Shown in pieces: positions 17,050 through 62,659 of a stretch of DNA of 64,000 nucleotides. The stretch comes from Diaphorobacter sp. HDW4B (GTDB lineage: Bacteria; Pseudomonadota; Gammaproteobacteria; Burkholderiales; Burkholderiaceae_C), in contig NZ_CP049906.1 in the NCBI RefSeq assembly GCF_011305535.1, forward strand, positions 248,001 through 312,000. The letters run 5' to 3'. The notes under the pieces were generated by a model. That model was not told the DNA's origin. It did no database searches and saw only the letters and a list, made by a program, of their open reading frames with translations. The translations under genes were made by a program, and so were the position numbers. Numbering within the stretch: the stretch's first letter is position 1; each line of letters opens with the position of its first letter.

Positions 17050-17253
17050 ATGTTGCGACTTCTTATCGCGGCAGCCCTTGCTGCGCCCATTATTTGTCAT
17101 GCCCAGTCTTCCGTGAATATCGGCGGTGGGTTTGTTGTCGGATACAAGCACACTCCATCAAAAAGTGATGGGACAAAATCAAAAGACGGTATTGACAACC
17201 TGGAGGCGGCCGGCAGCAATTTGAATCGCCCCGGATTTCCTAGACACTGTTGA
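17050..17253 (+). pseudogene. Porin gene truncated by an IS element
   Basis: The first 57 codons encode a signal peptide (LLIAAALAAPIICHAQ) and the start of a Gram-negative porin barrel (SSVNIGGGFVVGYKH...). At 17222 the reading frame enters the left inverted repeat of the IS3-family element and stops at 17253. A porin of this family normally has 330-380 residues, so about 85 percent is missing, and the lost part does not reappear on the other side of the IS. Porin next to Bug receptor is also the arrangement at 39333-41323. Confidence 0.75.
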
Positions 17254-18115
17254 GCCGTTGGGAATGCCGTCTTTCGAACTCTACCGGAGAGATATCTCCG
17301 GCGGTGCCATGACGCCTTTTCGGGTTGTAAAACATCTCGATGTAGTTGAAGACATCAGCCCTGGCCTCATCGCGCGTCGGGTAAATCTGGCGGCGAATAC
17401 GCTCGCGCTTGAGCAACTGGAAGAAGCTCTCGGCCACGGCGTTGTCGTGACAGTTGCCGCGACGACTCATGCTGGAGACCAGATTGTGATCTCGCAGAAA
17501 GCCCTGCCAGTCATGGCCTGTAAACTGACTACCCTGATCCGAATGCACCATGACAGGCAGCTTAGGCCTGCGACGCCACAAGACCATCAACAGTGCATCG
17601 AGCACCAAGCCAGTATCGATGCGGCTGCCCATAGACCAGCCAACAACCTGACGTGAGAACAGGTCAACCACCACCGCCAGATACAGCCAACCTTCATGGG
17701 TGCGGATGTATGTGATGTCAGTCACCCAAGCTTGGTTGGGCTCGGCCGCTGCGAAGCGGCGCTGCAAGTGATTGGGCGCGACGATGGCAGGTTTGCCGCC
17801 ACGCATGCCTGCACGGCGTTTGTAGCCCGTCTGTGAGCGCAGCCCCTCGATTTTGAGCAGTCGTGCCACGCGATGCTTGCCGCAGCTCTCGCCCAAATCA
17901 CGCATGTCCATGGTCAGCTTGCGATAGCCATAGACGCCACCACTCTCGAGCCACGCATGCTTGAGAAGACCCAACAGACGTTGATCGTCCTTTGCACGAA
18001 GGCTCATCGGTTGCGCCTTCCAGGCGTAGTAGCCGCTAGGGTGTACAGCCATGACCTTGCACAGTCGGCGAATGCTGTACTCACCTTCATGGCGCTTGAT
18101 GAATGCGTACTTCAC
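17240..18115 (-). CDS. IS3-family transposase, DDE subunit (OrfB)
   Basis: 291-residue catalytic part of the transposase. An HTH_21-like region (YSIRRLCKVMAVHPSGYYAW) precedes the rve integrase core with the DDE triad: Asp in WVTDITYI, Asp in VMVHSDQGSQ and Glu in NCHDNAVAESFF. It overlaps orfA by four bases (GTGA). It is normally made as an OrfAB fusion by -1 frameshifting on the slippery heptamer A-AAA-AAG at 18145-18151 (complement), which is in the correct frame near the end of orfA. The GTG at 18115 could also serve as a coupled start. All catalytic residues are present, so the element may still be active. Confidence 0.92.
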   Translation of the reverse strand: MKYAFIKRHEGEYSIRRLCKVMAVHPSGYYAWKAQPMSLRAKDDQRLLGLLKHAWLESGGVYGYRKLTMDMRDLGESCGKHRVARLLKIEGLRSQTGYKRRAGMRGGKPAIVAPNHLQRRFAAAEPNQAWVTDITYIRTHEGWLYLAVVVDLFSRQVVGWSMGSRIDTGLVLDALLMVLWRRRPKLPVMVHSDQGSQFTGHDWQGFLRDHNLVSSMSRRGNCHDNAVAESFFQLLKRERIRRQIYPTRDEARADVFNYIEMFYNPKRRHGTAGDISPVEFERRHSQRLNSV

Positions 18116-18390
18116 CCGGACTGCTTGGCAAAGTACGCTGCGGCCTTTTTTAGGATGTCGCGCTCCTCTGTGACTCGCTTGAGTTCAGCCTTCAGTCGTC
18201 GCAACTCCTCGGTTTGTGACACCTGTGCCGGCCGATCATGGGCAGGCGTTCCTTGAGCCTTGATCCATTGATAAAGGCTGTGCTGACTTACGCCTAGTCG
18301 GGCTGAAACATCGGCCACCTTATGGCCGCGCTCAGTGATCTGCTTGACTGCTTCGGTCTTGAATTCTTGGGGATATCTTTGGTTACTCAT
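18112..18390 (-). CDS. IS3-family transposase, DNA-binding subunit (OrfA)
   Basis: 92-residue protein with an N-terminal helix-turn-helix (EFKTEAVKQITERGHKVADV...LGVSQHSLYQWI) and a C-terminal leucine-zipper-like helix (EELRRLKAELKRVTEERDIL) that mediates multimerisation in IS3 transposases. The A6G frameshift motif lies in its last codons, allowing production of the OrfAB transposase. On its own OrfA usually acts as an inhibitor of transposition. Confidence 0.9.
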   Translation of the reverse strand: MSNQRYPQEFKTEAVKQITERGHKVADVSARLGVSQHSLYQWIKAQGTPAHDRPAQVSQTEELRRLKAELKRVTEERDILKKAAAYFAKQSG

Positions 18391-48760: not shown

Positions 48761-49621
48761 TCAGGCAATCTGGGCATGCCCAAAGTTCAGCACCACCACC
48801 TTGCGCTCCGTCGCCGTCGCGCGAAAGCTTACGCCTGATGCGGTCTTCCAGAACTCGGTCATGATGGTTTCGCCTGGATAGACCGGCGACGAAAAGCGCA
48901 GGGAGACCGAGCGCAGGCGTTCGGGTTGGTCGTCGCACAGGGCTTGCAGGATCGCACGTGTTGCCACGCCCATGGTGCACAGGCCGTGCAAGATGGGGCG
49001 ATCGAAACCTGCCTTACGGGCAATTTCCGGTGATGCGTGGATCGGGTTGTAGTCACCTGAGAGGCGGTAGATCAGGCCCGATTGCGGCAGCGTTGTGAGG
49101 CTGATGCTGTCGGCGGGCGGCGTGTCGGGGATGGGGTGGACGGCCGGAACCTCGGTGGTGGTTCCGCCGCAGCCGCCGTCTCCGCGCAGGACGTAGGTGG
49201 AGAGCACGGTCGCCACTTTTTCCTGAGTGAGCTTGTCGGAGAGCGTCTTCTCCAAGTAAAGCATGGCGCCTTTGCCTTCGCCCTTGTCGATCACGTTGGC
49301 GACGCGATACGCGCCCACGTAGGTGCGACCGGGTTCGAGCGGGCGGTGGATGGTGAACGACTGCTCGCCATGCAGCAGTTTGACCCACTCGATTTCCAGC
49401 TCCGGCTCCTTCACCCATGGCCCGGGGTGGCAGATGACGTTGACCATCGCGGGGAAGACCTTGAGTCCACCGGGTTTGTCTTCGTAGACGAACTGCAGGT
49501 CTTCTGCCACATTGGGGCGGTCACCCACGCCTACGCCGAGCGAGTACAGCATGCAGTCGCGCGGCGTGATCGTGTGCTCGGTCAGCGGGAATTCCCGCGC
49601 AAGTACTTTGGCAAGCTGCAT
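48761..49621 (-). CDS. MaoC/hydratase-2 family enoyl-CoA hydratase
   Basis: 286-residue double-hotdog enzyme of the peroxisomal multifunctional enzyme hydratase-2 type. The C-terminal hotdog has the R-specific hydratase motif YRLSGDYNPIHASPEIARKA (catalytic Asp and His) followed by RPILHGLCTMG. The N-terminal hotdog is the substrate-binding half (DRPNVAEDLQFVYEDKPGGL, FPAMVNVICHPGPWV). It hydrates a 2-enoyl-CoA to an (R)-3-hydroxyacyl-CoA. Two bases separate it from the SDR gene upstream, whose product would oxidise the hydroxyacyl-CoA. It is the last gene of the minus operon from 54629. Bulky substrates are typical of this type. Confidence 0.92.
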   Translation of the reverse strand: MQLAKVLAREFPLTEHTITPRDCMLYSLGVGVGDRPNVAEDLQFVYEDKPGGLKVFPAMVNVICHPGPWVKEPELEIEWVKLLHGEQSFTIHRPLEPGRTYVGAYRVANVIDKGEGKGAMLYLEKTLSDKLTQEKVATVLSTYVLRGDGGCGGTTTEVPAVHPIPDTPPADSISLTTLPQSGLIYRLSGDYNPIHASPEIARKAGFDRPILHGLCTMGVATRAILQALCDDQPERLRSVSLRFSSPVYPGETIMTEFWKTASGVSFRATATERKVVVLNFGHAQIA

Positions 49622-49623
49622 GG

Positions 49624-50535
49624 TCAGACCGGGTCCCAGGTGAACACGTCACGCGACTTGTCGAGCGGGAAGAACGAGGGTGCGAACATGGGAATGGCGC
49701 GGTCGAGGCAGGTTTCCACGGTCCAGCCTTCGCTGTTGTGGGCGGTGCGGATGGGGCGGGGCTGGGAGAACAGGAAGATCTCGTTGTTGCGCACGCCGAA
49801 GATCTGGCCGCTCACGTTGGCTGCGCGGTCGGTCAGCAGCGCGCAGGTGAAGGGAGCGATCTTGTTGGCCTCGAGACGCATGTTGACTTCCTGACGGGCC
49901 TTGCCTTCGGGCGTGTCGGTGGGGATGGTGCCCACCATGCGCGTGTAGGCAAACGGCGCGATGCAGTTGGAGCGCACGTTGAACTTCTCCAGATCCAGCG
50001 AGATGGACTTGGACAGGCCGACGATGCCCATCTTGGCCGCCATGTAGTTGGCCTGCCCCATGTTGCCGATCAGGCCCGAGGTGGAGGTCATGTGCACGTA
50101 GGAGCCGCTACCCTGGCCCTTGAAATACGGTGCCACGGCGCGCGAGACGTTCCAGCTGCCCTTCAGATGCACCTTGATGACGGCATCGAAATCTTCCTCG
50201 GTCATCTTGTGGAACAGGATGTCGCGCAGATTGCCCGCGTTGTTGACGACGCCGTCGATGCGGCCGTAGAGGTCGAGTGCCTGCTGCACGATCTTCTGGG
50301 CCGATGCCCATTCGGCCACGCTGTCGGTGTTGGCCGATGCCGTGCCGCCTTCGGCTTCGATGGCCTTGACGGTTTCCTGTGCCGGGCCGCTGCTGGCGCC
50401 GCTTCCGTCGATGTTGACGCCGAGGTCGTTGACGATCACCTTCGCGCCCTGGCGTGCCGCTTCCATCGCGATACCCTTGCCCACACCGGCACCTGCGCCG
50501 GTAACGATGATGACTTTTCCTTCGAGCAGATTCAC
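49624..50535 (-). CDS. SDR-family 3-hydroxyacyl-CoA dehydrogenase (HSD17B4-like)
   Basis: 303-residue short-chain dehydrogenase. The cofactor motif VTGAGAGVGKGIA, the NNAGNLRD region and the catalytic Ser-Tyr-x-x-x-Lys set (TSTSGLIGNMGQANYMAAK) are complete. The C-terminal extension (ANVSGQIFGVRNNEIFLFSQ) is typical of the SDR part of HSD17B4/MFE-2, where it is fused to a hydratase 2; here hydratase and dehydrogenase are separate adjacent genes. It should oxidise the (R)-3-hydroxyacyl-CoA made by the 48761 protein with NAD. Confidence 0.92.
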   Translation of the reverse strand: MNLLEGKVIIVTGAGAGVGKGIAMEAARQGAKVIVNDLGVNIDGSGASSGPAQETVKAIEAEGGTASANTDSVAEWASAQKIVQQALDLYGRIDGVVNNAGNLRDILFHKMTEEDFDAVIKVHLKGSWNVSRAVAPYFKGQGSGSYVHMTSTSGLIGNMGQANYMAAKMGIVGLSKSISLDLEKFNVRSNCIAPFAYTRMVGTIPTDTPEGKARQEVNMRLEANKIAPFTCALLTDRAANVSGQIFGVRNNEIFLFSQPRPIRTAHNSEGWTVETCLDRAIPMFAPSFFPLDKSRDVFTWDPV

Positions 50536-50582: not shown

Positions 50583-51896
50583 TTACAGTCGCGCCGCGAT
50601 GCCGCGCCAGGAGGCCAGCAGCGTGTCGCGAAATTCGGGGGCCGCCACCGAGATCAGTGCCTCGGCGCGCTCATGCACGCTGGCACCATTGAGGTTGGCC
50701 ACGCCGTGTTCGGTGACGACGAAATCGACGTCGATGCGCGAGAGCGTCACCACGGAATGCTCGGAGAGCTGTGGCGTGATGCGCGATCCGGTCTTGTGGC
50801 GTGAGGGAAGGGCGACGATGCTGCGTCCGCCAACCGACATGCGGCCTGCGCGCGCAAAGTCCGGTGCGCCGCCGCAGCCGCTCACGGCCATGCCGTTGGC
50901 GTGTTCGAGATTGCACTGACCGAACAGGTCCACTTCCAATGCCGAGTTCACCGCGACGAATCGATCGATGGCATTGAGCGTGGCCGCGCTGTGGGTGACA
51001 TCGCAGCCCAGAACGCGCAGTGATTCAAATTCTGCGGCCTGTTCGTAGAAGCGCTGACTTCCGACCAATACGCAGGTCGTGTGCGGATAAGACATGTCCA
51101 GCGCACCGGCTTTGGCGAGTTCCAGAAAGCCGTCCGACAACATTCCCGAGTGCATGCGCAGTCTGCGACGATCGTGCAGCAGTTGCATCAACGCGGTGGG
51201 AACCTTGCCCAGACCAGCCTGCAGCGTGCAGCCGTCTTCGATGAGCGATACGATGTTGCGGGAGATGGCCTCGGTGATGGCATCGGCCGGTGCCGAGTAG
51301 TTGGGCAGTGGCGTGTCCACTTCGCATACGTAGTCGAAGCGGCTGTAAGGAATGCTGACCGCGCCGGGAATGCGCGGTGTCTGGCGATTGATGAGTGCGA
51401 GCACGCGTCGACTCTTGTTCAGCACGACGGGCATGAATTCGACGGCCGGGCCGAGCGAGCAGTTGCCCTGCGCATCGGGGGCGGACACCTGCACGACGGT
51501 CAGGTCCACATCCACATGCTCGTTCAGGTGCCGCACGAAGCCGGAGTAGGAAAGCGGCAGCGCACGAAAGCGTCCGTCGCGCTGCGCCTGCGTGACGCCG
51601 GGCTGCATGAAGAGACCCGTGACCTCACCGGTGGCGTGCAGGCCCTGGAGTTCCAGCCGGTTGATGCTCGGCACGTAGGTGGTGAGAATGCGTGCGCCTT
51701 CGGTGCATGTCGGTTCGCGCAGCAACTCGGTCATGAACTCCTGAGGCGCGCCGCTGGAGCCGGGAACATAGACCAGGCCGCCCGCCTGCACAAGCTGCGG
51801 CATCTGATGTGCTTCGATGCTGCGTGCGCGAGGCAGGTTCAGCATCGCTGCGGCTGGAGTTTCATTGGGCACAGTGCGCATGGCGGGCGAGGTCAT
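50583..51896 (-). CDS. Acetyl-CoA hydrolase/transferase family CoA-transferase
   Basis: About 437-residue class I CoA-transferase of the 4-hydroxybutyrate/acetyl-CoA hydrolase group. The glutamate nucleophile is likely in NSALEVDLFGQCNLEHANG, and the glycine-rich CoA-binding GCGGAPDFARAG and the TEHGVANLNG motif near the end are typical. The ATG at 51896 has GTGGAAC ahead of it; a GTG at 51905 is the alternative start. It lies between the thiolase and SDR genes and probably activates the carboxylic acid that this cluster degrades, or releases CoA from a product. No CoA ligase is in the cluster, which supports activation. Confidence 0.88.
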   Translation of the reverse strand: MTSPAMRTVPNETPAAAMLNLPRARSIEAHQMPQLVQAGGLVYVPGSSGAPQEFMTELLREPTCTEGARILTTYVPSINRLELQGLHATGEVTGLFMQPGVTQAQRDGRFRALPLSYSGFVRHLNEHVDVDLTVVQVSAPDAQGNCSLGPAVEFMPVVLNKSRRVLALINRQTPRIPGAVSIPYSRFDYVCEVDTPLPNYSAPADAITEAISRNIVSLIEDGCTLQAGLGKVPTALMQLLHDRRRLRMHSGMLSDGFLELAKAGALDMSYPHTTCVLVGSQRFYEQAAEFESLRVLGCDVTHSAATLNAIDRFVAVNSALEVDLFGQCNLEHANGMAVSGCGGAPDFARAGRMSVGGRSIVALPSRHKTGSRITPQLSEHSVVTLSRIDVDFVVTEHGVANLNGASVHERAEALISVAAPEFRDTLLASWRGIAARL

Positions 51897-51920
51897 CAGT
51901 TCCACGTCAGTGGGCTTTCA

Positions 51921-53123
51921 TCAGTGGTGCAGTCCCAGGATGGACAGGGCGGAAATGCCGAGATAGGGAACGCCGCCCAGGTTGTGGGTCAGACCGAGGC
52001 TGGGGTTCTTCAACTGGCGCTCGCTCGCGCGGTCCTGCAGCTGGTTGTAGATCTCGTAGGCCATGCGCAGACCGGACGCGGCGATGGGGTGACCAAAGCA
52101 CTTGAGTCCGCCGTCGACCTGGCAGGGAACGCCGTTGCCCTCGCGGTCATAGAAGCCGTCCAGAATGTCGTGCACGGCGCGGCCATCTGCGGACACGCCC
52201 AAGTCTTCCATCGTCACCAGTTCGGTGATGGAGAAGCAGTCGTGCACTTCCATCAGCGAGATCTGCTTGCGCGGATCGGTGATGCCCGCTTCGGCGTAGG
52301 CACGCTGCGCCGCGGCGCGTGTGTTGCGCACATGGCTGCCGTCCCACTGGTTGGTGGTCGATTCCACGCCCGAGCTGATGCTGAGCTGAATCGCCTTGAT
52401 GGTCACCATGTCCTTCTTTCCGAGTGCGCGTGCGATCTCGGGCGTGGTGACGATGGCTGCTGCGGCACCGTCGCTCACGCCGCAGCAGTCGAACAGACCC
52501 AGCGGATCGGCGATCATCGGCGCGGCCAGAATCTGCTCCATGGTGATGGCTTTGCGCAGGTGGGCCTTGGGGCTCAGAACGCCGTTCTGGTGGCTCTTCC
52601 AGGAGACATGCGCGAGCGCCTTCTTCAGGTCTTCCTTCGATGTGCCGTGCTTGGCGCGATAGCCCGCGGCAAGCTGTGCGAAACCTGCAGGTGCGGAGCC
52701 AAGCGGCAGCCACAGGTCGTTGAGCGTGCCTTTGTACGGAGCGGGCAGGCCGCCGTAGCCGGTGTCCTTGAGCTTTTCCACGCCGATGGCGAGTGCAATG
52801 TCCACCGCGCCGGAGGCCACAGCGTAGGCCGCGCCGCGCAGCGCCTCGGTGCCGGTCGCGCACATGTTCTCCATGCGGCTCACCGGGATGCCATCGAGGC
52901 GCAGGGCCACCGATGTCGGAATCGCGGAGTTGCCCACGTTCACGTTGTCCATGCAGGAGCCCGCCCAGGCAGCCTCGATCTGCTTGCGTTCGATGCCCGC
53001 GTCCGCCAGCGCTTCGTTGAATGCTTCGGCCAGCAGCTCTGCGGAGCCCGCGTCCCAGCGCTCGCCAAACTTGGTGCAGCCCATGCCGATGATGGCTACC
53101 TTGTCTTTGATGCCCGTTGCCAT
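51921..53123 (-). CDS. Thiolase-family protein (SCP2/non-decarboxylating type)
   Basis: 400-residue thiolase of the SCP2-thiolase/archaeal acetoacetyl-CoA thiolase branch. The nucleophilic Cys is in RMENMCATGTEALRGAA, and the C-terminal motifs EVHDCFSITEL and GGLKCFGHPIAASG (His and Cys region) are present, so thiolysis activity is plausible. It is placed directly downstream (45 bp) of a gene encoding an HMG-CoA-synthase-like protein fused to DUF35. In archaea a thiolase of this branch, HMG-CoA synthase and DUF35 form one complex with a shared CoA site, which makes a comparable complex likely here. It would release acetyl- or propionyl-CoA at the end of beta-oxidation. Confidence 0.92.
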   Translation of the reverse strand: MATGIKDKVAIIGMGCTKFGERWDAGSAELLAEAFNEALADAGIERKQIEAAWAGSCMDNVNVGNSAIPTSVALRLDGIPVSRMENMCATGTEALRGAAYAVASGAVDIALAIGVEKLKDTGYGGLPAPYKGTLNDLWLPLGSAPAGFAQLAAGYRAKHGTSKEDLKKALAHVSWKSHQNGVLSPKAHLRKAITMEQILAAPMIADPLGLFDCCGVSDGAAAAIVTTPEIARALGKKDMVTIKAIQLSISSGVESTTNQWDGSHVRNTRAAAQRAYAEAGITDPRKQISLMEVHDCFSITELVTMEDLGVSADGRAVHDILDGFYDREGNGVPCQVDGGLKCFGHPIAASGLRMAYEIYNQLQDRASERQLKNPSLGLTHNLGGVPYLGISALSILGLHH

Positions 53124-53168
53124 GACTTGTCGTCTTTCTTGTTGGTTTGGTTGTGCCGCTTGCGCCGC

Positions 53169-54629
53169 TCATGCCGAAATCGGCGTGGCTTTCCAGAAGT
53201 AGCGCGGGTAGCCGCGCGCCTTGTCCACATCCTTCACGCGGAACACCATGCGCAGTGGCGTGCCCACATCCAGACCTTGCTGGCCGACATCGACCACTTC
53301 CATGAGCAGACGCGCGCCGATGTCGAACTGCACGAAGCCCACATACAGCGGCGGCGATGGGTGGTAGGAGAGCCAATCGGCTGTGTAGGTGAACACCTGT
53401 GCGGGTTCGTCGAACAGATGGGTGCGCGTGAACTTCTCGGATGGCGCGAGGCATTCGGGATTCACGCAGTAAGCCAGTTGCGGAAACTGCACGGCGCCGC
53501 AGCAGGTGCATTTGCCCGCAGTGAAGGCTGCCAGCTGGTGTGCGGAGCGATACTGCTCGGTCAGCGCGGTCTTCACCTGCTTTTCTCCGCGCATGCCCCA
53601 TTCGAGGTCGATGCCGTTGTCATACGACAGCATGCGCAGATAGGCCTCGTGGGTCTGGGCATCGGCCACAGCGCCACTCACGCCGCGGCGTGGCTTGAAC
53701 GAGGTGATGGCATCGGTGGCGCGCAGAACCACGACGTCGCAGCCCTGGCCAAAGCCCACGAGCACGATGACTTCGCCCGGCTTGGCCTTTTCCAGCGTGT
53801 GTGCCAGCATCAGCAGCGGATGGGCGCTGCCCGCATAGCCACAGGTGCTGTCCAGGCTGTCGGCCACGGCGGTGACTTCGATGCCGCAGCGCTTGGCCAC
53901 CATGCTTGCTGTGTCCTTGAGCGACGAGGCCAGAATGAAGTGCTGCACCTCGGGGGCTGTCACCTTGGCGTTGGCGAGCGCTGCCTTCATGGTTGCGGGC
54001 ACGATCTTGGCGTAGCCTTCATCGCGAATCCAGCGCTCTTCCCAGTAGTAGTCGTGCTGGCTGTCTGCAGCGCGGAAGTGGTCGACGAAGACGTTGACCT
54101 GGCTGGCATGGCCGATGAGTTCCGCGATCACCTTCTCGCTGCCCAAGGTGAAGGCTGCGGCACCTGCGCCGTAGCTCACCTCCTGTGTGCTGGCGGGCTT
54201 GGCCGATGGATGGTCGCTGGCGATCAGCAAGGTGTTTCCCTGCGATGCGCGCAACTGGGCGAGCAGCGCGCTCACACCGGCGCGCTGGGATTGGCCGACT
54301 TCCAGCGTCGCGATGTCGGAGCGCAGGTCCAGCGCGCCCGCCACAATGCTGGCCCCTTGCAGATCGGAGAACGGCGGGCGTGTCGACGCCAGCACCAGCG
54401 AACCGATTCCGTCACGAGCGCGACTGTCCAGCGCATCGCGTGCGGCCTCCACGGCCATGGTGACGCTGTCTTCGTCCCAACTGCAGAAGGCGCGTTGTCC
54501 TTTGGCTAGCCCGCGCAGGCCCGGCGCCATCCAACTGTGAGCTGCCGCGATGGCTGCGCGCTGCATGCGAAGTCTGGGTACGTATCCGCCGTAGCCGGTG
54601 ATTCCGTTGGCTGTTTGAGTTGATGTCAC
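53169..54629 (-). CDS. HMG-CoA-synthase-like protein fused to a DUF35 zinc-ribbon/OB-fold domain, catalytic Cys replaced
   Basis: 486-residue fusion. Residues 1-365 have the fold pattern of archaeal-type HMG-CoA synthase (GYGGYVPRLRM, CGYAGSAHPLLMLAHTLEKA, GFGQGCDVV). Where these enzymes have the catalytic Cys (F-A-C-K-A-G) the sequence reads GQSQRAG, with Gln115, and where they have H-Q-P-N it reads FILAS, so both the Cys and the His are lost. Residues 370-486 are a DUF35 module: zinc ribbon Cys374, Cys377, Cys388 and Cys393, then an OB fold. It is the first gene of the minus operon, next to a thiolase. It may be a scaffold, decarboxylase or aldolase subunit rather than a synthase; this is inference. 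Confidence 0.85.
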   Translation of the reverse strand: MTSTQTANGITGYGGYVPRLRMQRAAIAAAHSWMAPGLRGLAKGQRAFCSWDEDSVTMAVEAARDALDSRARDGIGSLVLASTRPPFSDLQGASIVAGALDLRSDIATLEVGQSQRAGVSALLAQLRASQGNTLLIASDHPSAKPASTQEVSYGAGAAAFTLGSEKVIAELIGHASQVNVFVDHFRAADSQHDYYWEERWIRDEGYAKIVPATMKAALANAKVTAPEVQHFILASSLKDTASMVAKRCGIEVTAVADSLDSTCGYAGSAHPLLMLAHTLEKAKPGEVIVLVGFGQGCDVVVLRATDAITSFKPRRGVSGAVADAQTHEAYLRMLSYDNGIDLEWGMRGEKQVKTALTEQYRSAHQLAAFTAGKCTCCGAVQFPQLAYCVNPECLAPSEKFTRTHLFDEPAQVFTYTADWLSYHPSPPLYVGFVQFDIGARLLMEVVDVGQQGLDVGTPLRMVFRVKDVDKARGYPRYFWKATPISA

Positions 54630-54691: not shown

Positions 54692-54708
54692 ATGCATACG
54701 ATATGCAT
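54692..54708. promoter_or_regulatory. MarR-type operator in the divergent promoter region
   Basis: ATGCATA-CGA-TATGCAT is an inverted repeat with perfect 7-bp arms. The core GCATACGATATGC (54694-54706) is the exact reverse complement of the core upstream of the MarR gene (62661-62673), and both are preceded by the same 12 bases TTAATTGATATT (here 54679-54690). It sits in the 251-bp region between the diverging operons of the cluster, 63 bp before the minus start. I infer control of both operons by the MarR protein encoded at 61949. Confidence 0.8.
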
Positions 54709-54880
54709 TTTTGACAAATGAGTCAACCAAAAAACGCAGCCGTCTATATTGGTGAAGACCCCTACGAGAAATTTCCGAGGACCCGAATAATTGACATGGC
54801 TGGCGCAAGAATGTGCTAATAAAATATGATATGGTCACATACTAAATGCGTTGCCTCATTCCACAAAACAGGAGACATCT

Positions 54881-55342
54881 ATGGCGGGTTTGTATTTCGA
54901 GCAGTTTGAACTGGGCCAGATCTTTCGCCATGACATCCGGCGCACGGTCACCGAGACCGACAACGTTCTGTTCACCACCATGACCCACAACCCTGCTGCC
55001 ATTCACTTGGACGCGGAGTACTCGCGCGGCACCGAATTCGGCAAGCCGCTGATGAACAGCGTGTTCACGCTGGGCCTGGTCGTCGGCATCTCCGTGGGCG
55101 ACACCACGCTGGGCACGACGGTGGGCAATCTGGGCTGGGATGAGGTGCGTTTCCCGCGCCCCGTGTTTGCGGGCGACACGATTCGTGTGGAATCCAAAGT
55201 GCTGGAAAAGCGCGAGAGCAAATCACGCCCCACAAACGGTGTGGTGATCTTCGAGCATGTGGGATACAACCAGCGCGATGAACTGGTCTGCTCCTGCAAG
55301 CGCAGTGCGTTGATGCACCGCGTTCCCCAATCCGAGGGCTGA
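54881..55342 (+). CDS. MaoC-family hotdog dehydratase
   Basis: 153-residue single-hotdog MaoC protein. The active-site helix is MTHNPAAIHLDAEYSRGTEF; the normal Asp-x-N-P-x-H motif appears as THNPAAIH, keeping the His but with Thr or His where Asp is expected. AGGAGA five bases before the ATG at 54881 fixes the start. It may hydrate or dehydrate an acyl-CoA such as mesaconyl- or beta-methylmalyl-CoA; the CitE-like protein encoded later in the same operon would suit that. First gene of the plus operon 54881-61881; its stop overlaps the next start by one base. Confidence 0.86.
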   Translation: MAGLYFEQFELGQIFRHDIRRTVTETDNVLFTTMTHNPAAIHLDAEYSRGTEFGKPLMNSVFTLGLVVGISVGDTTLGTTVGNLGWDEVRFPRPVFAGDTIRVESKVLEKRESKSRPTNGVVIFEHVGYNQRDELVCSCKRSALMHRVPQSEG

Positions 55343-56448
55343 TGAATATGGAAGTCGTGTCTTCACTGGATGCCGAGACCAAGAGCATGGTCGAAAGCTC
55401 GCTCGGTCGCTTTGTCGATGAGGCCTACGAGCCCACGCAACGCCACGCGAGATTGCTCAAGGGCGAGGTGGATTACCGTGCGCATTGGGCCACTCTGGCA
55501 GAGCTGGGCGTGCTGGCGCTGCCGGTGGGCGAAGCGCTGGGCGGCATCGGCGGCAGTACGGCCGATGTGTCCGATGCGCTGCGGATTCTGGCGCGCGGGC
55601 TGGTGCTGGAGCCGTTGATCGAGGCCGGCGTCATCCCCATGCCCTTGTTGGCCGCTGGTGCGGAAGGCGCTGACGCAGTGGCCGAAGCGCTCGCCGGTGA
55701 AAGCATGACGGTTCTGGTGGGTGGACGACGCGGCGATGAACTGCGCTGCTCGCGCCATGGCAGCACGGGGCAGATCAACGGTCTGGCCCGCGTCGTGCCG
55801 GGTGCGGCTCAGGCCGACATCTGGCTGATTGCCTGCACCAACGACGAAGGCGAGCCGCTGGTGCTGCGAGTGCGTGCCAGTGAGATCGTGGCGCAGTTGC
55901 GCGCCTTTCGCATGATGGATGCACGCGAGGCCTGCGATATCGAATTCACCGCATGCAGTCTGCCGACGAATGCGGTGTGGCTGTTTGGTGCGGCGGCGAC
56001 GCAAGCGCTGCAGGAGGCCAGTGCACGCGCCATCAGCGCCTATTGCGCCGACGCCGCAGGTGTCATGCAGAACCTGGTGCAGCAAACGGGCGAGTATCTG
56101 CGCACCCGCATCCAGTTCGATGCGCCGCTGGCCAGTTTTCAGGCACTGCAGCATCGCCTGGCCGATATGCACATGGCGGCGTTGGAGGCCAAGTCCATCG
56201 CGCGCGCCATGGCCAGAAGCATCGATGCAGGCGACGAGGAGCAGGTGCGCTGGCTAAGCTATGCGGCACCCACGGTGGTGTCGCGCTGCGCAACCAAGGT
56301 CGGGCACGACGCGATCCAGCTGCATGGCGGCATGGGCGTAACGGATGAACTGATCATCAGTCATTACAACTCGCGGCTCGTGGTGCTGCAGCAGTTGCTG
56401 GCGCGCTGGGTGGGCGATGCGCAATCCAGTTCGTCGTCAACCATTTGA
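55342..56448 (+). CDS. Acyl-CoA dehydrogenase, probable partner subunit
   Basis: 368-residue acyl-CoA dehydrogenase-fold protein. The C-terminal region reads HDAIQLHGGMGVTDELIISH and lacks the T-x-E-x-P type context of the classical catalytic Glu; the middle domain is short and the conserved nucleotide-site motif of full enzymes is weak. Proteins of this type (for example ChsE-like subunits of steroid degradation) form alpha2beta2 heterotetramers with a second acyl-CoA dehydrogenase encoded next door. The 56462 gene, 13 bp downstream, is the obvious partner. Start ATG 55342 overlaps the preceding stop. Confidence 0.86.
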   Translation: MNMEVVSSLDAETKSMVESSLGRFVDEAYEPTQRHARLLKGEVDYRAHWATLAELGVLALPVGEALGGIGGSTADVSDALRILARGLVLEPLIEAGVIPMPLLAAGAEGADAVAEALAGESMTVLVGGRRGDELRCSRHGSTGQINGLARVVPGAAQADIWLIACTNDEGEPLVLRVRASEIVAQLRAFRMMDAREACDIEFTACSLPTNAVWLFGAAATQALQEASARAISAYCADAAGVMQNLVQQTGEYLRTRIQFDAPLASFQALQHRLADMHMAALEAKSIARAMARSIDAGDEEQVRWLSYAAPTVVSRCATKVGHDAIQLHGGMGVTDELIISHYNSRLVVLQQLLARWVGDAQSSSSSTI

Positions 56449-56461
56449 TTCGGAGAGTGCC

Positions 56462-57667
56462 ATGCACAGCAACAACAACGCACCGGCTTTCGACGAGGCC
56501 GCATTTCGCGCCGAGGTGCGCGAGTTCGTCAAGGAAAACCTCGATCCCGTCACCCGGCACAAGGTCGAGAACGGCATCTATCTGGACAAGAGCGACTATG
56601 TCGGCTGGCAGAAGGCGCTGCGCCGTCGCGGATGGTTCGGCGCGGCCTGGCCCAGGTCGGCAGGTGGCCAGGACTGGAGCGTGAGGCAGGAACATGCCTT
56701 CTTGCAGGAAAGCGCGATCCACGCAGCGCCCATGCTCATCCCCTACGGCGTGAACATGCTCGGTCCGGTGCTCTACTCCTTCGGCACCGAAGCGCAGAAG
56801 CAGGCGCATCTGGGCGGCATTCTGGACAGCGACGTGTGGTGGTGTCAGGGCTACTCGGAGCCGAATGCCGGTTCCGACCTCGCATCGCTCAAGCTGCGCG
56901 CGGTGCGCGATGGCGATCACTACGTGCTCAACGGCACCAAGATGTGGACTACCGAGGCGCACTGGGCCGACATGATGCATTGCCTCGTGCGCACCGACAA
57001 CACGGGCCGCAAGCAGCAGGGCATCAGCTTTCTGCTGCTCGACATGAAGACGCCGGGTGTGAGCATCGACCCCATCGTCACCATCGATGGCGTGCACCAC
57101 ACCAACCAGACGTTCTTCGACAACGTGCGCATGCCGGTGTCCAACCTGGTGGGCGAGGAGGGCGCGGGCTGGAAGATCGCCAAGTTCCTGCTCTCGCGCG
57201 AACGCACCTTCATTGCCGATACGGGCAACAAGATCCGCATGCTCGGGCAGATCAAGGCGACCGTGGCGCAGAACGCAGGTTTGTTCGACCCCATGCAGCG
57301 CGCCCTGCAGGCCGAGCGCCTGTCACGCATCGAGGCGGACCTGACGGCCTTGCTGGCGCTGGAGCGCGACTACATCGACGAATGGATGGCCGGGCATGAC
57401 GACGGCATCGGTGCGTCGGTGCTCAAGGTGCGCGGCACCGAAGTGCTGCAGGCCATGACCGAATTCTGGCGCGATGCGCAAGGCCCCTACGGAGTCTGCT
57501 ACGACGCATCGCAGCGCAAGAGCGGCGATGGACTGGGGGCGCAGGAGCCTTGGGTGCGCGCCAGCGCAGGCACCTACAACTATCTCTACAGCCGCTGCTG
57601 GTCCATCTTCGGCGGCACCAACGAAGTTCAACGCAACATCATCGCCGCGCAGTTGCTGCGCGGTTGA
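56462..57667 (+). CDS. Acyl-CoA dehydrogenase
   Basis: 401-residue acyl-CoA dehydrogenase with WWCQGYSEPNAGSDLASL (flavin and substrate motif), LNGTKMWTTEAHWADMMHC and the C-terminal SIFGGTNEVQRNIIAAQLL. The start ATG at 56462 follows GGAGAGTGCC; an upstream in-frame ATG at 56417 lies in the previous gene. It probably pairs with the 55342 protein as a heterotetramer, as the tandem order and near-abutting spacing match known two-gene enzymes. Substrate is likely a branched or cyclic acyl-CoA, inferred from the enzyme type. Confidence 0.9.
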   Translation: MHSNNNAPAFDEAAFRAEVREFVKENLDPVTRHKVENGIYLDKSDYVGWQKALRRRGWFGAAWPRSAGGQDWSVRQEHAFLQESAIHAAPMLIPYGVNMLGPVLYSFGTEAQKQAHLGGILDSDVWWCQGYSEPNAGSDLASLKLRAVRDGDHYVLNGTKMWTTEAHWADMMHCLVRTDNTGRKQQGISFLLLDMKTPGVSIDPIVTIDGVHHTNQTFFDNVRMPVSNLVGEEGAGWKIAKFLLSRERTFIADTGNKIRMLGQIKATVAQNAGLFDPMQRALQAERLSRIEADLTALLALERDYIDEWMAGHDDGIGASVLKVRGTEVLQAMTEFWRDAQGPYGVCYDASQRKSGDGLGAQEPWVRASAGTYNYLYSRCWSIFGGTNEVQRNIIAAQLLRG

Positions 57668-57678
57668 GAGGCATCACC

Positions 57679-58833
57679 ATGATTCCACGCACCCTGTTCA
57701 AACCCGAGCACGACCAGTTCCGCGACAGCGTTCGCCGCTTCATCGACAAAGAGATTGTTCCGCACCACGAACGTTGGGAAGAGCAAGGCATGGTCGACCG
57801 CGAACTGTGGACCAAGGCGGGAGCAGCCGGTCTGCTGTGCCCCAACCTGCCCGAGGAATATGGCGGCTGCGGGCCGGACTATCTGTTCAACGTCGTCATC
57901 ACCGAAGAGCTGGCACGTGCCGGTGTGACGGGTCCGGGCTTTGCCGTGCACTCCGACATGGTGGCGACCTACATCGCCACCTTCGGTTCGGACGAGCAGA
58001 AAAAGCGCTGGTTGCCCAAGATGGTGACGGGCGAAGCGATTGGCGCGTTGGGACTGACCGAGCCTTCGGCCGGGAGTGACCTGAAGGGCATTCGCACCCG
58101 CGCTGTGCGGGAAGGCGACGAGTATGTGATCAACGGCCAGAAGGTCTACATCTCCAACGGCCAGCTGTGCGATGTGATCGTGCTGGCCTGCAAGACCGAT
58201 CCGGCCGCCGGTGCCAAGGGCATGAGCTTCATCCTGGTCGAGGCTGATCGCGCCGGATTCAAGCGCGGACGCAATCTGAAGAAGATCGGGCTGAAGGCGC
58301 AGGACACGTCCGAGCTGTTCTTCGAGAACGTGCGTGTGCCGGTGAGCAATCTTCTGGGTAAGGAGGGCGGCGCGTTCAGCATGGCGATGAGCAAGCTGGC
58401 CGAGGAGCGTTTGTCCATCGCGGTGTCGGCCATCATGATGGCGGAATCGGCGCTGCAATGGACCGTGGACTACACGCGCGAGCGTCAGGCGTTCGGCCAG
58501 TCGATCTCGGATTTTCAGAACACCCGGTTCAAATTGGCCGAGCTGAGCGCCGAGATTCTGGCCAAGCGCGTGTTCGTCGATCGCTGCGTCGAGCTGCATC
58601 TGAAGAAGGAACTCGATGCGGTGGATGCCGCCGCCGCCAAGATGCTTTGCACCGAACTGCAATGCAAGACGGTGGACGAGTGCCTGCAGTTCTTTGGCGG
58701 CTACGGCTACATGTTGGAGTACCCGATTGCGCGCGCCTACATCGATTCGCGCGTGCGTCGCATTGCCGGTGGTTCCTCGGAAATCATGCGCGAGATCATC
58801 GGGCGCAAGCTGCTCGGGGAGGCCCAGAAATGA
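57679..58833 (+). CDS. Acyl-CoA dehydrogenase (FadE type)
   Basis: 384-residue acyl-CoA dehydrogenase. It shows IGALGLTEPSAGSDLKGI, VINGQKVYISNGQ and the C-terminal FFGGYGYMLEYPIARAYIDS with the catalytic Glu before Tyr-Pro, so it should be an active homotetrameric enzyme of the short/medium-chain class. It starts at the ATG 57679 (11 bp after the upstream stop) and its TGA overlaps the CitE-like gene start (ATGA at 58830). Its place just before a lyase suggests a later step of the same chain-degrading route. Confidence 0.92.
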   Translation: MIPRTLFKPEHDQFRDSVRRFIDKEIVPHHERWEEQGMVDRELWTKAGAAGLLCPNLPEEYGGCGPDYLFNVVITEELARAGVTGPGFAVHSDMVATYIATFGSDEQKKRWLPKMVTGEAIGALGLTEPSAGSDLKGIRTRAVREGDEYVINGQKVYISNGQLCDVIVLACKTDPAAGAKGMSFILVEADRAGFKRGRNLKKIGLKAQDTSELFFENVRVPVSNLLGKEGGAFSMAMSKLAEERLSIAVSAIMMAESALQWTVDYTRERQAFGQSISDFQNTRFKLAELSAEILAKRVFVDRCVELHLKKELDAVDAAAAKMLCTELQCKTVDECLQFFGGYGYMLEYPIARAYIDSRVRRIAGGSSEIMREIIGRKLLGEAQK

Positions 58834-59726
58834 ATTTCACTCCCACACCGCGCAGCCCCGTGCGCTCCATTCTGTTTGTGCCTGGCGACAGCGAACGCAA
58901 GCTGCAGAAAGCTGCGGAATCCAATGCGGACGCGTTGATTCTTGATCTCGAAGATTCTGTGACCGCAAGCCGCACACAGGTTGCGCGTGAACTGGTGCTG
59001 GACTATCTCAAGAGCCAGAAGGAGGCTCGCCGCCAGCAGCTCTGGGTGCGCATCAACCCACTGAGCACGCCTGCTGCCTTGCTGGACCTGATGATCGTGG
59101 CTGGTGCTCCCGATGTGCTGATGCTGCCCAAAGTGGATTCGTCCGCCGATGTCGTGCGACTGTCCCACATGCTGGATGCGCTCGAAGTGCGTGAAGGCGT
59201 GCAGGCTGGCCACATCGGGATTCTTCCTGTCGCGACGGAAACGGCGGCATCGCTGTTCACGCTGGGCACTTACGCGGGCTGCTCGCCGCGTCTCGCAGGG
59301 CTGACCTGGGGCGCAGAAGACATCGCCGCAGCCCTCGGGGCCAGCACCAACAAGGGACCGGATGGCGGTTATGACCATGTCTTCCAGCTGGCTTGCTCCT
59401 TGTGTCTGGCCGGTGCCTGCGCGGCAGGAGTGCAGCCCATCGACACGATCTGGGCGGATTTCAAGGACGAGGCGGGCCTGCTTGCCAGCTCCAGGCTGGG
59501 CCGGCAACGAGGCTTCACGGGACGCATGGCGATTCACCCCGCGCAGGTCGATGTGATCAACGCCGCCTACAGCCCGAGCGAAGAAGAGCTGGTGTGGGCG
59601 CGGCGCGTGGTCGAGGTGTTCGATGCCAATCCGGGCCTCGGCACCGTGGGCCTCGACGGAAAGATGCTCGACATGCCGCATCTCAAACAGGCCAGGCGCG
59701 TGCTCGCGATGGCTCAGCGTGACTGA
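58830..59726 (+). CDS. CitE/HpcH-family CoA lyase (citramalyl/malyl-CoA lyase-like)
   Basis: 298-residue TIM-barrel lyase of the CitE-like group. The start SPVRSILFVPGDSERKLQKA, the metal-binding LILDLEDSV (Glu/Asp) and LTWGAEDIAAALGA are the family hallmarks. Members cleave citryl-, malyl-, beta-methylmalyl- or citramalyl-CoA to acetyl- or propionyl-CoA plus an oxo acid. The start is the ATG overlapping the upstream stop. With the MaoC protein at 54881 it could carry out hydration and cleavage of a C5 dicarboxylyl-CoA. Lack of citrate lyase alpha/gamma genes argues against true citrate lyase. Confidence 0.9.
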   Translation: MNFTPTPRSPVRSILFVPGDSERKLQKAAESNADALILDLEDSVTASRTQVARELVLDYLKSQKEARRQQLWVRINPLSTPAALLDLMIVAGAPDVLMLPKVDSSADVVRLSHMLDALEVREGVQAGHIGILPVATETAASLFTLGTYAGCSPRLAGLTWGAEDIAAALGASTNKGPDGGYDHVFQLACSLCLAGACAAGVQPIDTIWADFKDEAGLLASSRLGRQRGFTGRMAIHPAQVDVINAAYSPSEEELVWARRVVEVFDANPGLGTVGLDGKMLDMPHLKQARRVLAMAQRD

Positions 59727-59744
59727 CATATTTCAGGAAATCTC

Positions 59745-60911
59745 ATGAATTTTGCATTGACCGAAGAGCAACTGGCCATCCGCTCCGCCATCGAGGAAAT
59801 CTGTACCGATTTTGATGACGAGTACTGGCTGAAAAAAGACCGCGAAGGGGGCTTTCCCGAAGACTTCTACTCGGCCATGGCCAAGGCCGGTTGGCTGGGC
59901 ATTGCGATGCCCGAAGAGTTCGGCGGATCGGGCCTGGGCATCTCGGAGGCCTGCCTGATGCTGGAGACGGTGTCTGCATCCGGTGGCTGCATGACGGCGG
60001 CCTCCACCATCCACATGAATGTGTTTGGCCTGCATCCCGTGGTCGTTCACGGCACGGACGAGCAGCGCGCGCGTTGGCTTCCGCGCATCATCGCGGGCGA
60101 GCACAAGGCGTGCTTTGGCGTGACCGAGCCCAACACCGGCCTGAACACCCTCAAGCTCAAGACCATGGCGGTGCGCAAGGGCGACCGTTATGTGGTCAAC
60201 GGCCAGAAGGTGTGGATCTCGACGGCCCAGGTGGCGCACAAGATCATGCTGCTCGCGCGCACCACGCCACTCGATGAAGTGAAGTCGCCGACGCAGGGGC
60301 TGAGCCTGTTCTACACGGATCTGGATCGCAGCAAGATTGCCGTGCGCGAGATCGAGAAGCTCGGGCGCAAAGCAGTGGACTCGAACGAGCTGTTCATCGA
60401 TGGTCTGGAGATTCCAGTCGAAGACCGCATCGGTGAAGAAGGCCGGGGCTTCGAGTACATCCTGCATGGACTCAATCCCGAGCGCTGCCTGTTGGCGGCA
60501 GAGGCCACCGGCATTGGCCGCGCTGCTCTGCGCCGTGCCGCCAAGTACGCGGGCGAGCGCATTGTGTTCGACCGACCCATCGGCAAGAACCAGGGCATTC
60601 AGCATCCGCTGGCCGAGCGCTGGGTCGACCTCGAAGCCGGAACGCTGCTGTATCAGCGCGCTGCATGGCTGTACGACCAGGGCAGCCCCTGCGGTGCCGA
60701 AGCAAACGCGGCCAAATTCTTCTGCGCGGAAGCGGGCTTTCGCGCGGCGGAGACGGCCGTGCTCACGCATGGCGGCTTTGGCTATGCCAAGGAATACCAC
60801 GTCGAGCGCTATCTGCGCGAAGCGATGCTGCCGCGCATTGCCCCGATCTCGCCGCAGCTGATTCTGAGCTTCATCGCAGAGAAGGTGCTCGGCCTGCCCA
60901 AGTCCTATTGA
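59745..60911 (+). CDS. Acyl-CoA dehydrogenase
   Basis: 388-residue acyl-CoA dehydrogenase with ACFGVTEPNTGLNTLKLKTM (the usual S-D of the TEP-AGSD motif is replaced by L-N), VVNGQKVWISTAQ and HGGFGYAKEYHVERYLREA with the catalytic Glu. CAGGAAATCTC precedes the ATG. It is the fourth dehydrogenase of the operon and is placed before the BKACE gene. The altered substrate motif may reflect a special substrate. Confidence 0.9.
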   Translation: MNFALTEEQLAIRSAIEEICTDFDDEYWLKKDREGGFPEDFYSAMAKAGWLGIAMPEEFGGSGLGISEACLMLETVSASGGCMTAASTIHMNVFGLHPVVVHGTDEQRARWLPRIIAGEHKACFGVTEPNTGLNTLKLKTMAVRKGDRYVVNGQKVWISTAQVAHKIMLLARTTPLDEVKSPTQGLSLFYTDLDRSKIAVREIEKLGRKAVDSNELFIDGLEIPVEDRIGEEGRGFEYILHGLNPERCLLAAEATGIGRAALRRAAKYAGERIVFDRPIGKNQGIQHPLAERWVDLEAGTLLYQRAAWLYDQGSPCGAEANAAKFFCAEAGFRAAETAVLTHGGFGYAKEYHVERYLREAMLPRIAPISPQLILSFIAEKVLGLPKSY

Positions 60912-60948
60912 GCCCATCGGGTCACATCACCACCAGAAGACAAACACC

Positions 60949-61881
60949 ATGGCAATCCAGAACAAGGTCATCATCACCTGCGCCGTCACCGGCTCGATCC
61001 ACACGCCGTCGATGTCGCCTCACCTGCCGGTCACGCCGCAGGAAATTGCGGATGCGGCGGTAGGTGCCTGCGAGGCGGGGGCCTCCATCATCCATCTGCA
61101 TGCGCGCGATCCCGAGACCGGCAAGCCCGATCAGAGCCCGCAGGCCTTCGCCAAATTCCTTCCGCAGATCAAACAGCGCTGTGACGCGGTGGTGAATCTG
61201 ACGACCGGCGGCTCTCCCTACATGACGGTGCAGGAGCGCATTCAGCCGAGCATCGTGTTCAAGCCCGAGGTGGCCTCGCTCAATATGGGCACGATGGGGT
61301 TTGGACTCTTCGGCATGCTGGAGCGCTTCAAGGAATTCAAGCATGACTGGGAGCGCGAGTATCTGGAGGGCAGCCGCAATCTGGTGTTCCGCAATACCTA
61401 CGGCGACATCGAAACCGCGCTCACCGACATGTCGGCCAACGACACCCGCTACGAGTTCGAATGCTACGACACGGCGCATCTCTACAACCTTGCGTACTTT
61501 GTCGATAAGGGCCTGGTGAAGGCGCCGTTCTTTGTGCAGACGGTGTTCGGATTGCTGGGCGGCATTGGCTCGCATCCCGAGGATGTGATGCACATGAAGC
61601 GCACTGCCGATCGGCTGTTCGGCAAGGATTACCGCTGGTCGGTGCTGGGTGCCGGTGCTGCGCAGATGAAGGTGGCTGCGATGGCGGCTTCCATGGGCGG
61701 CAATGTGCGTGTGGGTCTGGAAGACAGCCTGTGGATCGCCAAGGGCCAGCTTGCCGAATCGAATGCGCAGCAGGTGCGCAAGGTGCGCGAGATCATCGAA
61801 GGTCTGGGGCTGGAAGTGGCGACGCCGGCCGAGGCGCGCGAGATTCTGCAGCTCAAGGGGCAGGATCGCGTGGCGTTCTGA
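60949..61881 (+). CDS. Beta-keto acid cleavage enzyme (BKACE, DUF849)
   Basis: 310-residue TIM-barrel zinc enzyme of the BKACE/Kce family, which transfers a beta-keto acid fragment to acetyl-CoA giving acetoacetate and a new acyl-CoA. The zinc-binding HLHARDPETGKPDQS motif near residue 45, LTTGGSPYMTVQERIQP and EFECYDTAHLYNLAY are typical. It is the last gene of the plus operon and is followed by a hairpin with an 11-bp stem. The keto acid is not defined by sequence. The family handles 3-keto-5-aminohexanoate, dehydrocarnitine and others. Confidence 0.92.
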   Translation: MAIQNKVIITCAVTGSIHTPSMSPHLPVTPQEIADAAVGACEAGASIIHLHARDPETGKPDQSPQAFAKFLPQIKQRCDAVVNLTTGGSPYMTVQERIQPSIVFKPEVASLNMGTMGFGLFGMLERFKEFKHDWEREYLEGSRNLVFRNTYGDIETALTDMSANDTRYEFECYDTAHLYNLAYFVDKGLVKAPFFVQTVFGLLGGIGSHPEDVMHMKRTADRLFGKDYRWSVLGAGAAQMKVAAMAASMGGNVRVGLEDSLWIAKGQLAESNAQQVRKVREIIEGLGLEVATPAEAREILQLKGQDRVAF

Positions 61882-61948: not shown

Positions 61949-62485
61949 TCAGGCCTTGCCCTTGGAGATGGCCAGCAGGTTGTCCTTGACCCGCCCGAGC
62001 AGATCGGCGAGCTCGTGGCGCGTGTCGTCATCGAGCCCATCGAGAATGCGTTCGCTCATGTCGTTGCTGAGCACGCGCATTTCCTTGATCAGCGATGCCC
62101 CGGCTGCCGAAAGATAGACCCGCTTGGCGCGGCGGTCGGTTTCGTCGGCACCGCGGCGCACGAGGCCAGCCGCTTCGAGCCTGTCGATCAGGCTTCCGAG
62201 TGCCGCCTTGCCCAGCTCCAGCACGCTGGCCAGATCGCTCTGGATCATCCCGTCATGGCGAGACAGGTAGGCCAGTACCCACCATTGCGAACGGGTGATG
62301 TTCAGCGGACGCATGAAATCATCGAACACCGTGCGGCGCAGGCGTGATACGTCGTGCATCAGAAAGCCGAGTCGCTGATCCCAGTTGTCCTCGGTGACGC
62401 GCTGCACGGCTGCCGGAGTGGCCGTCGAGGGGCTGGTCTTGGCGGCCTTCGCTGCGGATGCTGCTGTGTTCTTGGATGTGGCCAT
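61949..62485 (-). CDS. MarR-family transcriptional regulator
   Basis: About 178-residue regulator. After a low-complexity Ala/Thr/Ser-rich N-terminal tail, residues about 45-170 form the MarR winged helix (ITRSQWWVLAYLSRHDGMIQ, SDLASVLELGKAALGSLIDR, ADETDRRAKRVYLSAAG). I choose the ATG at 62485, behind AAGGAGGAG; ATGs at 62518 and 62647 are in frame but less likely. Its promoter region carries an inverted repeat that is the exact reverse complement of one in the divergent region at 54694, so it likely represses itself and the acyl-CoA cluster. MarR proteins of this type often respond to CoA thioesters. Confidence 0.92.
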   Translation of the reverse strand: MATSKNTAASAAKAAKTSPSTATPAAVQRVTEDNWDQRLGFLMHDVSRLRRTVFDDFMRPLNITRSQWWVLAYLSRHDGMIQSDLASVLELGKAALGSLIDRLEAAGLVRRGADETDRRAKRVYLSAAGASLIKEMRVLSNDMSERILDGLDDDTRHELADLLGRVKDNLLAISKGKA

Positions 62486-62659
62486 ATTGCGGAGCTCCTC
62501 CTTGTCATTCGTTTGCATGCTTACGGCATTTGAATCTCCGCTCAACGACACTCCACCGGTGTTTTTGAGAGGGATTGGCGAAAATTCTGCATCGTTCACA
62601 CGCATCTTGAGAGTTTCTGTGCAGGGCATCCACTCGTATGCTTTCATTAATTGATATTA

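Follow-up and report, generated by a model that had tools for sequence, protein, structure and literature searches.

PhlACB (PpATase) of Pseudomonas protegens (5M3K) consists of a thiolase-fold catalytic subunit, PhlC, with an HMG-CoA synthase (HMGS)-like and a DUF35 subunit. According to the available text of PMC6392133, PhlA has neither the Cys nor the Glu, and acyl transfer is carried out by PhlC residues only. The three subunits are separate chains, and the enzyme serves antibiotic biosynthesis by C-acyl transfer without added CoA. The archaeal complex 6ESQ is made of the same three modules, and CoA is bound at the interface of all three proteins (PMC6392133). Its HMGS is active (Glu82, Cys114 and the His of HQPN), its DUF35 protein is separate, and it belongs to the mevalonate pathway. 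MucABC of Streptococcus macacae (9VBO, titled as a multi-component acyltransferase complex) also has separate chains, with 20-22% identity, and its HMGS-like subunit is without catalytic residues, having Glu at the Cys place. In catabolism, BbsAB, Ltp2/ChsH2 and Sal/Shy pair a thiolase-fold enzyme with a DUF35 partner, as at the present locus, but they are without an HMGS-like module, and Ltp2 and Sal are aldolases. The DUF35 domain of Sal/Shy helps to build the walls of the active site (PMC12329534). In the edc cluster of Novosphingobium tardaugens, EGO55_13555 has been called an HMG-CoA synthase; the available text of PMC7793797 assigns it no step and suggests another activity, e.g. that of a thiolase.

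Here, we describe a gene pair in which the parts corresponding to PhlA and PhlB form one chain, encoded next to a thiolase in catabolic clusters. The window, i.e. the whole stretch of DNA that was analysed, comprises 64,000 nucleotides of Diaphorobacter sp. HDW4B. The positions of the features are given in Table 1. Open reading frames together with Pfam and profile searches confirmed the coordinates, strand and domain make-up that the first-pass annotation had given for the pair. The minus-strand run comprises five genes, for the fusion, the thiolase, a CoA-transferase, an SDR and a MaoC protein, with gaps of 45, 15, 47 and 2 nt. The three modules of the multi-component complexes (thiolase, HMGS-like and DUF35) are thus encoded together. 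The setting of the cluster is acyl-CoA breakdown. The RipB-like MaoC and the CitE/RipC-like lyase of the divergent run form an itaconate-type hydratase/lyase pair inside this acyl-CoA cluster, and the contig carries a second strong BKACE copy elsewhere (G000:C2:470530-471456; 547 bits). The host genome (6.2 Mb, two contigs) gave one match to the fusion profile and, besides the fusion, six further places matching DUF35.

Table 1. Features of the window (positions counted from its first letter)
Feature	Position	Strand	Remarks
MaoC hydratase (MaoC2)	48761-49621	-	MFE-2 hydratase N-terminal domain
SDR dehydrogenase	49624-50535	-	
CoA-transferase	50583-51905	-	AcetylCoA_hyd_C family
Thiolase	51921-53123	-	400 aa; NF004810 (PRK06157) family; C88, H294-D-C296-F, H345
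Pseudo-HMG-CoA-synthase/DUF35 fusion	53169-54629	-	486 aa; GTG start, consistent with homologues
DUF35 part of the fusion	53172-53528	-	residues 368-486; zinc ribbon (C374/C377/C388/C393) and OB fold; matches 6esq_E and PhlB
Thiolase-fold pseudo-synthase domain	53685-54605	-	residues 9-315; AlphaFold2 model and Foldseek
Gln115 codon, at catalytic Cys position	54285-54287	-	alignment to Cys114 of 6esq_I
Perfect 17-bp inverted repeat	54692-54708	.	ATGCATA-N3-TATGCAT; between the divergent gene runs
Divergent gene run	54875-61881	+	RipB-like MaoC, three acyl-CoA dehydrogenases, CitE/RipC-like lyase, fourth acyl-CoA dehydrogenase, BKACE
RipB-like MaoC	54875-55342	+	below curated cut-off
CitE/RipC-like lyase	58830-59726	+	below curated cut-off
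BKACE	60949-61881	+	NF053538 (3,5-dioxohexanoate family); 562 bits, cut-off 430
MarR-family gene	61949-62647		Pfam

Pfam searches of the fusion returned ACP_syn_III_C above its cut-off (35.3 bits against 26.6), OB_ChsH2_C on either side of a cut-off of 27.1 (25.0 bits in one search and 28.8 in another) and zf-ChsH2 under its cut-off (16.6 bits against 23.2). Residues 8-315 matched the archaeal HMG-CoA synthase models TIGR00748 and NF003274 at scores well under their cut-offs (143 against 244 bits and 93 against 353 bits), which places the fusion outside both families. The pseudo-synthase domain was modelled with AlphaFold2 at a pLDDT of 83.6 and a pTM of 0.87. The top Foldseek matches of the model were PhlA (TM 0.82 by target length) and the HMGS of the archaeal thiolase complex (0.86-0.87), so that the domain has the HMGS-like fold found in 6ESQ and 5M3K. 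In sequence comparison, PhlA was the top-scoring solved relative, before archaeal HMGS and MucA.

The His of the HQPN motif has a catalytic role in HMG-CoA synthase. The Glu and the Cys are key residues of the enzyme as well (PMC6392133). In an alignment with the archaeal HMGS chain 6esq_I, Glu82, Cys114 and His238 correspond to Thr83, Gln115 and Ala234 of the fusion. Both replacements named in the first-pass annotation were therefore found: Gln115 occupies the nucleophile position, and His238-Asn241 of 6esq_I aligns with A234-S235-S236-L237, which overlaps the FILAS stretch said to replace H-Q-P-N. The loss of Glu82 is a third changed catalytic position, absent from that annotation. No nucleophilic Cys at a shifted position was present in the alignments of the fusion; the nearest conserved Cys residues, C49 and C263, sit elsewhere and are missing from some relatives.

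These columns were then followed through 70 fused homologues, i.e. the window protein and 69 others; over the trimmed synthase part, 69 of the rows are distinct. The sources are Proteobacteria, Actinobacteria, haloarchaea and one Myxococcota MAG. Not included in the row counts are the G103 hit (L065) and the loci L007, L060 and L074-L081, whose genes were already represented. The Cys column held Q in 48 rows, L in 9, T and R in 3 each, and K, I, S, P, A, G and H once each; it comprised 11 residue types and was never Cys. The Glu column was T in 67 rows and otherwise C, A or S, with no Glu in any of the 70. At the His column, A (30 rows) and P (27) prevailed, followed by S (4), G (2) and H (2), and D, C, V, T and Q also occurred. 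PhlA and MucA have lost the HMGS catalytic residues too, as seen in the alignment. Since the Cys column holds 11 residue types, the Glu is gone from all rows and the His from all but two, the loss is old and the site free to vary. Judged from these columns, the loss is a trait of the whole fusion family, and the synthase part is dead as a synthase. The zinc-ribbon residues C374, C377, C388 and C393 were kept in 68, 65, 65 and 65 of the 70 rows, respectively. The profile reached the DUF35 part well in 67 of the 69 relatives; in two haloarchaeal rows it ended at 390 and 399, and the zinc ribbon and tail beyond were assigned by eye.

The thiolase scored 650.6 bits against NF004810, whose cut-off is 403. 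All 45 aligned rows have C88, H294 and C296. H345 is present in 43, the other two showing a gap and a Tyr, and N381 has two gaps. The protein has the nucleophilic Cys, the HDCF and the GHP of degradative thiolases of the SCP2/archaeal type. On these residues, the thiolase subunit is intact and catalytically complete. Its bit scores were 171 for archaeal 6esq_A, 161 for an SCP2-thiolase, 133 for BbsB, 65 for Ltp2 and 59-63 for PhlC.

When other named genomes were searched for the fusion next to a thiolase, all 44 related loci had a member of the thiolase family following the fusion on its strand. It ended 1189-1248 nt past the fusion in 42 of them, and in the remaining two the contig ends within the thiolase (948 and 1025 nt). 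With thresholds of E 1e-10 for the fusion and E 1e-100 for the thiolase, and with the top candidates of a first pass scored, both families were found in 5 of 185 and 7 of 299 sampled genomes. These are 11 different genomes, and the set was identical for fusion and thiolase; the sole other match in the samples was a weak one in G103 (51 bits, and 47.6 bits in a separate search). The 11 genomes carry 13 copies of each family, 11 of them adjacent; in G322 and G458, both genes are present but lie on different contigs, and these two non-adjacent copies count against the proposed complex. Plasmid records with a match numbered 51, and each of the 13 examined carries the pair, among them records from Rhodococcus, Streptomyces, Mycobacterium avium, Halorubrum and Haloferax. 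On the plasmid of Paraburkholderia PGU19, the thiolase gene has a disrupted reading frame, and the gene order is reversed, with the thiolase first, on two haloarchaeal plasmids (L082 and L083). On both, the fused pseudo-synthase/zinc-ribbon gene and its thiolase lie near a phenylacetate-CoA ligase gene. The fusion in one MAG titled Klebsiella pneumoniae (L037) is near-identical to the one in L039, an uncultured gammaproteobacterium, and the title of the MAG is probably wrong. The adjacency of fusion and thiolase in all 44 related loci indicates that the pairing is not due to chance. These results bear out the earlier proposal that the two proteins are partners, the fusion most likely being a one-chain HMGS and DUF35 unit that acts with the thiolase.

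Homologues of the other cluster genes were counted around the 44 loci at identity thresholds of 38-50%; 12 of the loci are 15 kb or shorter. They were found for MaoC2 in 20 loci, SDR in 19, ACADc in 18, ACADd in 17, the CoA-transferase in 14, MarR in 13, RipC in 12, RipB in 11, ACADb in 7, BKACE in 5, ACADa in 4 and DUF1329 in 1. Because the gene neighbourhood changes from one genome to the next, the pair resembles a module that serves several pathways. One such setting is an estrogen-edc-like cluster of Novosphingobium ES2-1 (L059), in which a fusion without the Cys, 31% identical to the present one, adjoins a thiolase. EGO55_13555 was matched to this gene by gene order, not by sequence.

Mean pairwise identity was 79% for the thiolase, 64% for the DUF35 part and 55% for the pseudo-synthase. 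The slow change of the thiolase, together with the examples of PhlACB and 6ESQ, agrees with a single catalytic subunit assisted by one helper chain. A tree calculated for the synthase part, with long branches and an outgroup of four rows (archaeal HMGS, two PhlA and MucA), placed all 70 fused rows on one side of a branch (100/98). This topology would fit a single fusion event. Distances of fusion and thiolase were correlated at r = 0.78 (45 rows). Control correlations on their own sets were nearly as high for the SDR (0.89 vs 0.90) and the CoA-transferase (0.83 vs 0.85), and that for RipC was higher (0.77 vs 0.62). The co-variation of distances is thus weakly specific in its support for a physical partnership, as the partner does not separate clearly from the cluster genes.

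From these observations, we consider it probable that the two proteins form one catabolic thiolase complex in which the thiolase does all the chemistry and the fusion is its obligate, non-catalytic partner for the CoA site and assembly. We infer a physical complex, a non-catalytic role and a CoA-site role of the fusion as the most likely arrangement. In such a complex, the thiolase would cleave a 3-ketoacyl-CoA thiolytically via Cys88, with Cys296 and His345 as acid/base. The DUF35 part would clamp the thiolase and complete the CoA/pantetheine site, and the dead HMGS-like part would form the rest of the assembly and line the substrate cavity, like PhlA beside PhlC. Given the CoA at the three-protein interface of 6ESQ and the DUF35 walls of Sal/Shy, the fusion should do both for its thiolase. 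Joining the two helper parts in one chain would fix their ratio. As for the substrate, our guess is a branched or ring-derived 3-ketoacyl-CoA, to which the acyl-CoA dehydrogenases, the MaoC hydratase and the SDR encoded nearby would lead.

Different roles for the fusion were weighed against this complex. An active HMG-CoA synthase was rejected because of the lost catalytic residues. The first-pass annotation had offered several possibilities, one being a KSQ-type decarboxylase. In such an enzyme, Gln115 in place of Cys would stabilise the enolate formed when a malonyl-type CoA ester loses its carboxyl group. Gln does occupy this site more often than any other residue, and the flanking Ser114 and Arg116 were invariant in 45 close rows. 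KSQ domains retain His residues. Here, 57 of the 70 rows have Ala or Pro at the place of the HQPN His and 68 have no His there, the Glu is lost from all, and Gln shares its site with ten other residue types instead of being conserved. The variable Cys column and the mostly lost His argue against such a decarboxylase, which is highly improbable and was rejected on the residues of the three columns. A scaffold-type subunit in a catabolic setting, which the same annotation had also named, fits the synthase part. The fusion could instead have a new CoA-ester activity of its own (e.g. as a hydrolase) or regulate the thiolase, being a scaffold only in part. Many invariant pseudo-synthase residues remain in 21 aligned rows (e.g. 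WDED and parts of WEERWxRDE); they are compatible with another activity and count against a non-catalytic role. However, some of these invariant blocks align with matching stretches of archaeal HMGS and can therefore be inherited features of the fold, and the pseudo-synthase is the fastest-changing part of the pair. We regard an own activity of the fusion as quite improbable.

The chemistry of the thiolase was considered in the same way. PhlA tops the solved relatives of the pseudo-synthase, and the BKACE of the divergent run scores above its cut-off for the 3,5-dioxohexanoate family (Table 1), 3,5-dioxohexanoate being an intermediate of phloroglucinol breakdown (PMC10470551). Both would suit an enzyme of the PhlACB or MucABC kind, a Friedel-Crafts-type C-acyltransferase or de-acylase that attaches an acyl group to a cyclic 1,3-diketone or phenol or removes it from there. 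This is unlikely, since the thiolase is much closer in score to 6esq_A and SCP2-thiolase than to PhlC, the neighbours are beta-oxidation genes, and BKACE accompanies few of the loci. In addition, Cys296 is kept, whereas PhlC has Tyr298 there and so appears to be without the second thiolase Cys, as judged by spacing alone. A retro-aldolase like Ltp2 or Sal, with its pocket shaped by DUF35, would fit the occurrence of a family member in an estrogen-degradation-type cluster, as Ltp2 and Sal have DUF35 partners and act on steroid side chains (PMC12329534). Sal, however, has Gly at the nucleophile and YDCY for HDCF (PMC12329534). The present thiolase, which scores low against Ltp2, has neither lost the nucleophilic Cys nor gained the Tyr, and C88 and the His and Cys of HDCF are invariant. 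Keeping both Cys and the His makes an aldolase, also suggested in the first-pass annotation, very unlikely, and it was rejected.

The names given to members of the fusion family include hydroxymethylglutaryl-CoA synthase, OB-fold protein and ACP synthase III C-terminal domain protein. The first name would place a mevalonate-type condensation amid degradation pathways. Reading the family as a thiolase subunit removes this puzzle, probably also for the EGO55_13555-type edc gene, and may explain the "HMG-CoA synthase" of the estrogen edc cluster. This reading predicts that the neighbouring thiolase needs the fusion for activity or stability. The complex had been proposed as previously undescribed. 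This holds in part: a disabled HMGS-like subunit is already present in PhlACB and MucABC, and the edc gene has been noted, without a step in the available text (PMC7793797), so the kind of complex is known. What is new is the single-chain pseudo-synthase/DUF35 protein in a catabolic setting beside a complete thiolase. A description of the fusion as a thiolase subunit was not found among the titles and abstract openings of the matches listed, a search scope mostly outside the subscription literature. For structural work, the fusion is a catabolic single-chain relative of PhlACB-type acyltransferases. More tentatively, the pair may represent a widely shared thiolase holoenzyme of catabolism that has escaped description. 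The former synthase would then gate the substrate, as one half of an active site for ring-derived acyl-CoAs, and the enzyme would be used across many degradation pathways, including those of estrogens, with one fusion origin common to bacteria and haloarchaea; we see this wider picture as possible but doubtful.

The inverted repeat between the divergent runs (Table 1) occurs once in the 6.2-Mb genome and overlaps a -10-like hexamer upstream of the fusion. A promoter scan gave one site upstream of the fusion, which is at chance level (1 found vs 1.1 expected), and the exact repeat pattern was not found in the relatives' loci examined. The repeat is perhaps an operator, with the MarR-family gene as a candidate for its regulator. 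G+C increases along the window, being about 55% over its first 24 kb and about 62% after 48 kb, and a transposase/integrase-core gene pair lies at 17240-18390; the shift and this gene pair suggest a mosaic region.
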